From positions 1 to 34,458 of the IMG/VR virus record IMGVR_UViG_3300046837_000164: DNA of 34,458 nt; one strand, written 5' to 3'. Position 1 is the first letter of the stretch, and each line of letters starts with the position of its first letter. The notes under the pieces are model-generated. The model was not told the origin of the DNA and searched no databases. It was given only the letters and a program-made list of their open reading frames with translations. The stretch is from a virus. This document shows, piece after piece, positions 24,185 through 30,213 of the stretch. The translations under genes were made by a program, and so were the position numbers.

Positions 24185-24616
24185 ATGCCGCAAGCCTGGC
24201 CGAACGTGGACTGGACCGACGAACGCCGCGAGCAGGTGCGGCAGCTCTGGGAAGCCGGCTTCACCGCCGGCCAGATCGCGCGGCGGCTCAATATCGGCAT
24301 CACCCGCAACGCCATCATCGGCCTGGTGCATCGCAACGGGTTCGTGCGGCCACTGACGCGCAAGAAGCCGCGCAAGCCAACGCCGACCAAGAAGAAACGG
24401 GCGGCGCCGAAACAGCCACGGCCGGTCGCGGTTCACATCACGCCGCCACCGCCGCCGCCACCTCCCACGCCGATCGGCGAGCTGACCATCGAGCAATTGG
24501 ACGACCATCATTGCCGCTGGCCGACCGGCGACAGCCCGTTCCGCTACTGCGGCGATCGCAAGCGCGACGGCTCGTCCTATTGCGAAACGCATCACCGGAA
24601 AGGAACGCACGGATGA
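24185..24616 (+). CDS. gcrA: GcrA-family cell-cycle regulator, phage-encoded
   Basis: 143 aa. N-terminal VDWTDERREQVRQLWEAGFTAGQIARRLNIGITRNAIIGLVHRNGF is the GcrA DNA-binding domain, close to the Caulobacter sequence (WTDERVSTLKKLW...GVTRNAVIGKVHRLGL). A basic and proline-rich linker follows (KKPRKPTPTKKKRAAPK, then eight prolines). The C-terminus CRWPTGDSPFRYCGDRKRDGSSYCETHHR is the GcrA end that in Caulobacter contacts sigma-70. Host GcrA activates promoters with methylated GANTC sites. A phage copy could retarget RNA polymerase to phage promoters or hold the host cell-cycle state. Slightly shorter than the Caulobacter protein because of the linker. Confidence 0.92.
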   Translation: MPQAWPNVDWTDERREQVRQLWEAGFTAGQIARRLNIGITRNAIIGLVHRNGFVRPLTRKKPRKPTPTKKKRAAPKQPRPVAVHITPPPPPPPPTPIGELTIEQLDDHHCRWPTGDSPFRYCGDRKRDGSSYCETHHRKGTHG

Positions 24617-24854: not shown

Positions 24855-25640
24855 ATGAAGCGTCCTTGGATTCCGCTCCATGTCGGCGACTACACAAAGG
24901 ATACCGGGCATCTGCGCGCCGCCGGCAATGGTGCCTACCTTTCGCTGATCATGCACTACTGGTCGACCGGCGGCTTACCCACCGACGACTACTCGCTCGC
25001 CACCATCGCCAAGATGTCCGATCGCGAATGGCTGCAGCACAAACCCACCATCCAGGCTTTTTTTCACGATGGCTGGAAACACAAGCGCATCGACGCCGAG
25101 ATAGCCCTTGCGGACAAACGCTACGAACGTCGAGCAACGGCCGGCTCAAAGGGCGGAAAAGCTAGAGCAATGCCAGAGCAATGCTCAAGCAATGCTATGC
25201 CAATGCAAAAGCAACCTACAACCTACAAAGAACAAGAAGAAAGAAAGGAAGAAAGGAAAGAACGCGCGCGCGAGATGCGCGCTTCGCCTTCCTTCGACGA
25301 GTTCTGGCAGATCTACCCCAACAAGGTGGGCAAAAGCGCAGCGCAAAAGGCATTTGCTCGAATAGCCCAGGCGCAAACGACCACCTTTGAAATCCTGATG
25401 ACCGGCCTGCGTGCCTACGTCGCTAAGACCGACGACCGGCCGTGGTGCAACCCGGCCACGTGGCTCAACCAGGGTCGCTGGGACGACCAACCCGCAGAGG
25501 CAATCCATGAAACCAGTAGGCGCCAGCAGCGTAGTCCAATCACCGAAGCACTTGACCGACAGGCTGAACGCTACCGATGCAAGGATGGCGACGGCGACGA
25601 AGTACGCGAAAATCTTGTTAGGCTGTTACCGAACAGGTGA
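24855..25640 (+). CDS. Replication initiation protein, DUF1376 (YdaU-like)
   Basis: 261 aa from ATG 24855 with GAGGGG just upstream; GTG 24849 is an alternative. The N-terminal ~90 residues (WIPLHVGDYTKDTGHLRAAGNGAYLSLIMHYWSTGGLPTDD) are a clear DUF1376 domain, found in phage replication proteins that act like lambda O. A low-complexity linker (PEQCSSNAMPMQKQ... EERKEERKERARE) is followed by FDEFWQIYPNKVGKSAAQKAFARI, the C-terminal domain often seen in such proteins. The linker DNA holds five 11-bp iterons and an A-rich purine tract, so the gene probably contains the origin, as lambda O does. Confidence 0.82.
   Translation: MKRPWIPLHVGDYTKDTGHLRAAGNGAYLSLIMHYWSTGGLPTDDYSLATIAKMSDREWLQHKPTIQAFFHDGWKHKRIDAEIALADKRYERRATAGSKGGKARAMPEQCSSNAMPMQKQPTTYKEQEERKEERKERAREMRASPSFDEFWQIYPNKVGKSAAQKAFARIAQAQTTTFEILMTGLRAYVAKTDDRPWCNPATWLNQGRWDDQPAEAIHETSRRQQRSPITEALDRQAERYRCKDGDGDEVRENLVRLLPNR
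25164..25262 (+). other. Probable replication origin: 11-bp iterons plus A-rich purine tract
   Basis: Five units start at 25164, 25175, 25186, 25197 and 25208, exactly 11 bases apart. Units 1 and 2 are AGAGCAATGC, unit 3 is CAAGCAATGC, unit 4 ATGCCAATGC and unit 5 AAAGCAACCT. About 15 bases later comes a nearly pure purine run (25224-25262) rich in A. Iterons next to an easily melted tract inside the initiator gene repeat the plan of lambda ori within O. Confidence 0.65.
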
Positions 25641-26043
25641 GGCCAACGATCCCGAAGTCTACGCTAGCGCGGTCACGCATATCCTCGCGCAATATCCCGA
25701 AGACATCATGCGCTCGGTATCCGATCCACTGACCGGCCTACCCAGCAAGATCGAGTGGTTGCCAAAACTTAAAGAGGTGCTCGCCGCTTGCGAGGAAATC
25801 GCCGGCTTTCGTCGCCGCATGAGCGAATGGGACCAGCGTACCGCGCAGCAATTGGCGGAGCGTGAAAAACTGGAGCAAGCCGGCCCACGCAAAGTGCCGC
25901 AACACATGCTCGATGAATTGGCCGCCGCCGGCCTCACCAAGCAACCGCGACTGCGTGATCTCGAAACGCCGGGCAAGGTGATGGCCAAGTACGGCATCTC
26001 GCAAGCGCAATGGGACGCCATTCCAAATGCAAACCCAAAGTGA
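25507..26043 (+). CDS. Replication-associated hypothetical protein
   Basis: 178 aa from ATG 25507 with AGAGG six bases upstream. This start overlaps the DUF1376 gene by 134 bases; ATG 25585 would give 152 aa. The core NDPEVYASAVTHILAQYPEDIMRSVSDPLTGLPSKIEWLPKLKEVLAACEEIAGFRRRM is a pattern I associate with proteins that follow DUF1376 initiators in rhizobial phages. The helical C-terminus ends in KVMAKYGISQAQWDAIPNA. By place it may be a helicase loader (lambda P-like), which is inference only. Confidence 0.6.
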   Translation: MKPVGASSVVQSPKHLTDRLNATDARMATATKYAKILLGCYRTGEANDPEVYASAVTHILAQYPEDIMRSVSDPLTGLPSKIEWLPKLKEVLAACEEIAGFRRRMSEWDQRTAQQLAEREKLEQAGPRKVPQHMLDELAAAGLTKQPRLRDLETPGKVMAKYGISQAQWDAIPNANPK

Positions 26044-28602: not shown

Positions 28603-30213
28603 ATGGGTCTGCACGGGATAGGTGCGATCAAGGGCAAGAAAAAACCGGACGCTGTGCGAGGGGGTAGTCCTCCACCCTGGGGGAAGAAAACCCTATCGCG
28701 GCTCGACCGGGTGCTTGTGTTCCTGGAATTTTTGCCGATCACCAAAGGCAAGTTGGTCGGACACAATCTAGAATTGTTGCCGTCGCAGCGGGCCTTCGTC
28801 GAGGACTTGTACGGGCGCGAGGAGGGTCAGGTCCGGCTCGGGATATTTTCCGAACCGCGCGGCAACGGCAAGACCGGATTGATCGCAGGATTGATGCTTT
28901 GCCATCTGCTGGGACCGGAAAGCGAGCTGCGCGGCGAGTGTTATTCAGCCGGCATCGACCGGCTGCAGGCCGCGCTGATCTTCAACGAGATGGAAGCGAT
29001 CATTCACGCGGTGCCGGAATTCAAAGCGCGCTGCAACATCCAACGCTTCCGCAAGATCATCGAGGTGCTGGACGGCGACGGCAAGGGCTCGAAATACGAG
29101 TCTCTATCGGCCGACAGCCGGCGGGCGCACGGTTTGGCGCCCAGTTTCTGGGCCTATGACGAGATGGCGCAGGCCAAGGATCGCGTTCTATTCGACAATC
29201 TGCAGACCGCGATGGGCAAGCGCCGCCGCTCGCTCGGCGTCGTGATCTCGACGCAGGCTGCGGATAACGATCACGCGCTGTCGCAATTGATCGACGACGT
29301 TAAGACCGGCGCCGATCCGTCGATGGTGGTGCATTTGCTGACGGCGCCAACGGATGCCGACCCGTTCGATGCGGACGTAATCCGCAGCGTCAATCCGGCC
29401 TTTGGCAAGTTTCTCGACGAGGCCGATGTGCTGGCCGAGGCCGAGCGGGCGCGGCGGATGCCGTCGTTTGAGAGCGCATTTCGCAATTTGCGGTTGAACC
29501 AGCGAATTGCGCCGTTCGGGCGCGACCAACTGCTGACGCCGGATGTGTGGTCGCAGGGCGATGCGCCGATCGACGAGGCGATGTTTGGCGATGGCCGGCC
29601 GGTTTTCGGTGGGCTCGATTTGTCATCGACGGTCGACCTGACGGCGTTGGTGCTGGCCGCCGAGGACGACGCCGGTAATGTGCATCTGCTGCCGCAGGCG
29701 TGGACGCCGGCCGACACGCTGGCGGAACGGATGCTGTATGACCGTGCGCCCTATGATGCCTGGGTACGCGCCGGGCAACTCACTGCGGTGCCGGGCAAAG
29801 CGATCGACTACGACTGGGTAGCGATGGCGCTGGCCGATGCCGGCGCGCGGATGAACCTGTGCCAGGTCAACTATGACCGCTGGGGCATCAAGCAGTTCAG
29901 CCAGGTGCTCGACCGGCTCGGGATCACGGCACCGCTCGAGCCGATGGGCCAAGGTTTTCAGGATATGTCGCCGGCGGTGAAGACGTTTCAGTTGCTGGCG
30001 GTGAGTGGCCGCATCCGGCACGGCAATCATCCGCTGTTGCGCTGGTGCTTTGCCAATGCGGTGGTGACGCGCGATGCCGCCGACAATTGCAAGCTCGACA
30101 AGGCAAAGGCGTATGGCCGCATCGACGTTGCGGTGGCGGCGATCATGGCGGTCGGTGCGCTGAAGGCGACGACGGCAACACCGGAATACGACATTGCGGC
30201 TTTGATCGGTTAG
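28603..30213 (+). CDS. terL: Terminase large subunit (ATPase-nuclease)
   Basis: 536 aa. Packaging motor of the Terminase_1 type. Walker A SEPRGNGKT at residues 83-91, Walker B FWAYDE at 182-187, a coupling segment VVISTQAA near 213-220, and nuclease acids in GGLDLSSTVDLTAL (Asp339) and near the end in GRIDVAVAAIMA. The size is normal. ATG 28603 follows a GGG-rich leader (GGGTTAGGG). No small subunit gene is recognisable beside it. It starts the late structural cluster, and the next gene has its own ribosome site. Confidence 0.95.
   Translation: MGLHGIGAIKGKKKPDAVRGGSPPPWGKKTLSRLDRVLVFLEFLPITKGKLVGHNLELLPSQRAFVEDLYGREEGQVRLGIFSEPRGNGKTGLIAGLMLCHLLGPESELRGECYSAGIDRLQAALIFNEMEAIIHAVPEFKARCNIQRFRKIIEVLDGDGKGSKYESLSADSRRAHGLAPSFWAYDEMAQAKDRVLFDNLQTAMGKRRRSLGVVISTQAADNDHALSQLIDDVKTGADPSMVVHLLTAPTDADPFDADVIRSVNPAFGKFLDEADVLAEAERARRMPSFESAFRNLRLNQRIAPFGRDQLLTPDVWSQGDAPIDEAMFGDGRPVFGGLDLSSTVDLTALVLAAEDDAGNVHLLPQAWTPADTLAERMLYDRAPYDAWVRAGQLTAVPGKAIDYDWVAMALADAGARMNLCQVNYDRWGIKQFSQVLDRLGITAPLEPMGQGFQDMSPAVKTFQLLAVSGRIRHGNHPLLRWCFANAVVTRDAADNCKLDKAKAYGRIDVAVAAIMAVGALKATTATPEYDIAALIG

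Follow-up and report, generated by a model that had tools for sequence, protein, structure and literature searches.

A candidate replication origin inside the predicted DUF1376 initiator gene of a phage

Where replication begins on a phage genome known only from its sequence is a question that the genome itself may answer. The stretch of DNA analysed here (hereafter the window) is the 34,458-bp IMG/VR virus record IMGVR_UViG_3300046837_000164, in which an array of short direct repeats lies in the middle of a gene for a predicted replication protein; the question that it raises is whether the repeats belong to an origin or merely to the protein. The segment from 25164 to 25272 is probably a phage replication origin located inside the gene of its own initiator, of which the DUF1376 domain would bind the repeats and open the DNA so that a helicase can be loaded.

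The gene (24855-25640, plus strand) encodes a protein of 261 amino acids that consists of a DUF1376 domain, a linker bearing the candidate origin, and a C-terminal domain. Its membership in the DUF1376 family is indicated by the match to PF07120 (E 1.2e-19, 70.8 bits against a gathering score of 30.1), and the PHROG matches are a 'primosomal protein' (phrog_9327, E 1.1e-29) and a 'replication initiation protein' (phrog_270, E 7.5e-20). The DUF1376 domain, proposed to bind the iterons, spans residues 4-84 (24864-25106, plus strand); the linker is predicted to be disordered (AlphaFold pLDDT below 50 at residues 109-121); and the C-terminal domain (approximately residues 144-212; 25284-25490, plus strand; phrog_10293 and phrog_35156) is an exchangeable half, of a type present in only 22 loci with the window counted. 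PF07120 was the only Pfam-A family matched at E 1e-3, with no match to the lambda O family or to RepA_N (PF06970), and PHROG likewise gave no lambda O match. A homologue of the cell-cycle regulator GcrA (24185-24616; PF07750, E 3.6e-27) is located directly 5′ of the initiator gene.

The DUF1376 domain is predicted with high confidence to be a winged helix (pLDDT 95-98 by AlphaFold; 89.8, with pTM 0.78, when modelled alone). Structural matches were all weak: 4pql (Z 5.2, rmsd 4.1 over 77), 5kbj (Z 5.2) and 2v79 (DnaD, Z 4.9). These top matches at Z ~5 (VIA) include the N-terminal domains of RepA_N and DnaD as well as ORC2, and since unrelated winged helices tie with them, the likeness of fold is only consistent with a relationship to initiators. 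The window protein had no match by sequence in the PDB, and Foldseek against the PDB returned nothing significant (E above 0.3).

Within the linker, five 11-bp iterons with the core GCAATGC occupy 25164-25218 on the plus strand, as units 25164-25174 (AGAGCAATGCC), 25175-25185 (AGAGCAATGCT), 25186-25196 (CAAGCAATGCT), 25197-25207 (ATGCCAATGCA) and 25208-25218 (AAAGCAACCTA). The first three are strong and near-identical and the last two degenerate; the cores start at 25167, 25178, 25189, 25200 and 25211, in exact steps of 11 bp. The array runs into a G-free short tandem repeat, CAACCTACAACCTACAA (25212-25228, plus strand; period 7 by TRF), in which CAACCTA occurs twice (CAACCTACAACCTA, 25212-25225). 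An A-rich purine tract with one C follows (25227-25262, plus strand), the proposed unwinding region, and directly after it lies the tract CGCGCGCGCG (25263-25272, plus strand). A 60-bp stretch around the array has an A+T content of 0.65 against a mean of 0.386 and is jointly the most A+T-rich of the window. When identity at a lag of 11 nucleotides was compared with synonymous recodings, the whole orf scored 25 of 33 matches (p=0.0032) and the linker alone 20 of 24, a value that none of 200 recodings reached. Direct repeats that share a conserved core and fall in phase with the helix are features of an iteron-type origin; the position of the iterons inside a gene, between its DNA-binding and C-terminal domains, and the A+T-rich stretch adjoining them (25227-25262) are features of the lambda-type in-gene layout.

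The sequence-only reading of this locus had claimed that the linker of the DUF1376 gene holds five iterons at exact 11-base spacing, with an A-rich purine tract behind them. The sequence and repeat finders confirm this, with two small corrections: the fifth iteron is only partial, and the array runs on into the CAACCTA element, which that reading left unnamed. GC skew, which it had suggested as a check on the origin, has no clear turning point here and is uninformative as an origin marker in this fragment.

Relatives gathered by protein similarity alone, together with annotated phage records, provided 142 non-redundant DUF1376 loci, 135 of which have a coding linker. The iteron sequence varies by clade, being AGCAATGC, TGCAAATGCA, GCAATTGC, CGCAATGCGATCG, CAACGGTCGTT or ACGCAGTCCGG. 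Short repeats that lack G usually stand 3′ of the iterons, for example CACAACCACAACCACA, CAATCACAATCACA, CACTCACACTCAC, CACCTTCACCTT and CCTAACCCTAACCC, with ACAGATACAGAT behind the iterons in a Rac-like group; they encode the SPSPSP, QPQPQP, PNPNPN and TDTDTD stretches of the DUF1376 family. On average, the longest run without G measures 21.5 nt, compared with 14.2 nt under recoding (t 11.4), and its median start is 82 nt past the domain. The CAACCTA repeat of the window corresponds to the 6-mer repeats, also G-free, that its relatives have, and was missed by a hexamer detector because its period is 7. A-rich DNA usually comes after the G-free repeats; because the purine strand is not conserved, the tract being pyrimidine-rich in the group with non-coding arrays, only A+T-richness is claimed for the family. 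In 17 of the 142 loci, the A-rich tract is followed by CGCGCGCG tracts, distributed 10/14/16 over the reading frames, for example at 25263-25272 of the window and in L005, L035 and L172.

The DUF1376 domain and the iterons travel together. Where two loci have unrelated C-terminal halves, their iterons are the more alike the closer their DUF1376 domains are (Mantel r 0.43, with none of 2000 permutations as high), a correlation to which shared descent of the linker contributes. The genes that follow vary. In the window, an overlapping gene (25507-26043, plus strand) is in the position of lambda P, the helicase loader; its product belongs to no family recognised in PHROG, and its assignment as lambda P was dropped because the profile match is weak (hhalign probability just 17%). 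Six of ten relatives tested have a lambda-P-like or helicase-primase gene next, namely members of the lambda P family (PF06992) in L103 (E 4e-35), L100 (6e-29), L080 (7e-13) and, weakly, L070, and DnaB-type helicase-primases in L010 and L131. In Rac-type phage, DUF1376 is followed by the putative replication protein YdaV, and in two Rhizobium phages (L035 and L036) the gene directly after DUF1376 encodes a DnaA-like protein. The last arrangement, and the annotation of DUF1376 as primosomal, would suit an origin at which the iterons are bound by host DnaA or by a downstream protein while DUF1376 just assists in helicase loading, but the clade-specific motif tracks similarity of the DUF1376 domain whereas the downstream genes vary, and recognition by another protein is unlikely.

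The spacing of 11 bp is a property of the family at the DNA level. Identity at lag 11 in the 135 linkers is 0.344, against 0.299 under the synonymous-codon null (t 15.7, and like the other t value an overstatement of independence, since the 142 loci are related) and 0.258 in the control, the same genes further downstream; identity at lag 22 is likewise raised. Taken singly, 60% of linkers reach p<0.05 at 11 bp, compared with 3.1% of 867 control segments from other orfs of the same loci, while a period of 10 bp passes in 4% of linkers and 12 bp in 17%. As 11 is not a multiple of three, the encoded peptide differs from copy to copy, and AGCAATGC occurs in frames 0/1/2 with 35/13/18 copies in DUF1376 loci, with zero copies 260-505 nt past the domain in the same orfs. 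In five non-redundant loci (L007, L113, L121, L123 and L133), the reading frame of a short DUF1376 protein of ~110 amino acids closes 30-39 nt past the domain, and the repeat array lies shortly beyond the stop codon, in DNA that is not coding; in these loci the tract that comes next is pyrimidine-rich rather than purine-rich.

These observations bear on the possibility that the repeats are mere low-complexity coding for a flexible hydrophilic linker, generated by replication slippage and having no function as DNA. Slippage does produce tandem repeats, and the region does encode a disordered linker (pLDDT <50 at residues 109-121), but repeats of 11 nt do not keep the reading frame, the signal exceeds that of synonymous recoding, the motif is found in all frames, and the array lies beyond the stop codon in five loci. 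Moreover, the core is conserved while the spacers vary, a pattern like that of binding sites rather than of fresh slippage, and the clade-specific motif tracks the N-terminal domain. Low-complexity coding as the source of the repeats is rejected on the strength of the synonymous-codon null, the frame counts and the non-coding cases, which leaves the absence of any DNA function very improbable.

The same codon-null scan finds the annotated iterons of lambda O and the repeats of the Tuc2009 rep gene, which served as positive controls. For a held-out sample, PF07120 matches were taken from 398 genomes drawn from one phylum and chosen irrespective of the window; of 22 new linkers, six have p<0.05 at 11 bp (binomial 4e-5). 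Several distant DUF1376 proteins of this sample (L327, L329 and L339) lack 11-bp iterons. Relatives with the same protein and no iterons, which the sequence-only reading would have counted against itself, therefore exist at a distance, alongside the 60% of the 135 linkers that have them, and the trait is common and widespread rather than universal.

A protein-blind scan of viral contigs for AGCAATGC-N3-AGCAATGC found at least 120 loci. Among the matches listed, 63 of 120 loci have a DUF1376 gene, and in these 63 most of the matches fall 7-137 nt past the domain on the same strand. The remainder of the matches listed includes several divergent DUF1376 or Lin1244_N initiators and one endonuclease VII neighbour. 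In 11 of the matches listed, the pair was rejected as an origin, being a coding coincidence on the reverse strand of the terminase Walker region (GGRGGAKSWGIARALL); these cases (L189, L190, L254 and eight more) are a trap for motif scans. A few matches fall inside the sequence of the DUF1376 domain proper (WSNAKAML); these seem to be accidents of coding in a single clade and were also set aside.

Iterons often double as autoregulation sites, and the GcrA-like regulator gene (24185-24616) is located just 5′ of the initiator gene, so the repeats might instead be operator sites by which DUF1376 or another regulator controls its own operon, with no origin present. Such a role is very unlikely: about 300 nt inside the coding region from its start would be an unusual place for an operator, the adjoining G-free repeats and A-rich tract suit unwinding and not repression, and relatives have helicase or lambda-P neighbours. 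That the element serves DNA packaging (pac/cos) or partition, for which the large terminase gene 3 kb downstream (28603-30213) might speak, is hardly credible given that the neighbours in relatives are replication genes and that it is the DUF1376 domain, not terminase, which the element accompanies.

An initiator-origin unit within the gene, as the sequence-only reading proposed, is thus the best explanation because of the layout conserved at the DNA level across the family, the lambda O control, the order of elements shared with the lambda origin, and the lambda-P-like or helicase-primase neighbours in several relatives. On this sequence evidence, the best reading of DUF1376 is a winged-helix initiator with its origin beside its DNA-binding domain, working as lambda O or pSK41 RepA does. 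We infer binding, unwinding, helicase loading and origin activity as follows. The N-terminal domain would bind the GCAATGC-core iterons, whose 11-bp spacing would line the protomers up along a single helix face, to load side by side. Strain from the bound complex would open the adjoining DNA, both the G-free repeat and the A-rich tract. The single strand thus exposed, perhaps held via the short repeats, would receive the replicative helicase through the variable C-terminal half, the next gene's product or both, much as lambda O passes on to P and DnaB. By analogy, the G-free repeats may be single-strand sites for the initiator. The unwinding region of ori2 of Vibrio cholerae has 5′-(G/A)ATCA-3′ repeats by the initiator sites, bound as single-stranded DNA by RctB (review PMC10797057). 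Many DUF1376 loci have CAATCACAATCACAATCA repeats, which resemble (G/A)ATCA in motif only; ori2 is chromosomal and has a different initiator.

Origins inside initiator genes are already known from lambda O, Tuc2009 rep, pSK41 RepA and repABC RepC. The lambda origin in gene O has its iterons between the DNA-binding and C-terminal parts and then a G-poor, A-rich purine stretch (in order, iterons, gacacaaaagacactattacaaaagaaaaaagaaaag and an inverted repeat), and the helicase-loader gene is next in lambda as PF06992 P-like genes are next in some DUF1376 relatives. The two proteins have no detectable homology, and the comparison with lambda O made in the sequence-only reading holds for the working principle and not for descent; the 18-bp iterons of lambda are spaced 20-24 bp, unlike the 11-bp units of DUF1376, and the short G-free tandem repeats are typical of DUF1376 loci and not of the lambda origin. 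In pSK41 RepA, a winged-helix N-terminal domain binds Rep boxes central in rep, the origin-encoded linker is dispensable, the C-terminal half is host-specific and exchangeable, and chimeric N-terminal swaps occur (PMC5703833). DUF1376 is similar in its central candidate origin and variable C-terminal half, but it is another Pfam family with weak likeness of fold (Z ~5), and RepA_N belongs to plasmids of Firmicutes. The record of lactococcal phage Tuc2009 annotates Rep as 'contains origin of replication', and the same scan finds repeats in the gene, although this Rep is a DnaD-like protein with other repeat periods. The repABC plasmid p42d of Rhizobium etli has oriV inside the initiator gene repC, where silent mutations of the A+T-rich region abolish replication (PMC3155836); it shares with the DUF1376 candidate origin the in-gene position in alphaproteobacteria, and differs in that no iterons are reported and the initiator family is another. 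The literature searched held no paper that links DUF1376 to a replication origin, and as far as that literature shows, what is new is the assignment of such an origin to DUF1376, together with its 11-bp register, its G-free repeat element and the variant with non-coding arrays.

Two further groups of loci have similar arrangements. In L038 and L041, which encode YdaU in Rac-type prophages, inverted TGTTCAAACA / TGTTTGAACA sites are followed by the ACAGATACAGAT repeats in the linker, a candidate position, judged from the sequence, for the Rac origin oriJ; oriJ is not annotated in the RefSeq stretch examined. Initiators with the Lin1244_N domain (PF14297) have repeats in the gene after the N-terminal domain, and those of Bacteroidota are mixed, with an 11-bp array (TTCAACCACAG) in L320, 21-bp repeats (ATTACGGGAAAAACCGAGGTT) in L313 and 10-bp repeats in others. 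It may be suggested, tentatively and at slightly less than even chances, that several winged-helix families of phage initiators (DUF1376, Lin1244_N and perhaps others) follow a common origin grammar of clade-specific 11-bp iterons after the DNA-binding domain, G-free repeats of 6-7 nt read as a single strand, and A-rich DNA; that this grammar, and not protein function, writes the SPSPSP, QPQPQP, PNPNPN and TDTDTD repeats common in phage replication proteins; and that the origin and the N-terminal domain form a single cassette that passes from one C-terminal half to another, unrelated one.

DUF1376/YdaU, a large family of unknown function, would become a family of predicted replication initiators with mapped candidate origins, and for many phages and prophages that are uncultured the origin could then be read from sequence. 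An explanation as a DNA signal is offered for the odd repeat linkers of phage replication proteins. The modular swapping of initiator-origin cassettes and the G-free repeats as possible single-strand sites are directly testable, and the loci are candidate small replicons for alphaproteobacteria.
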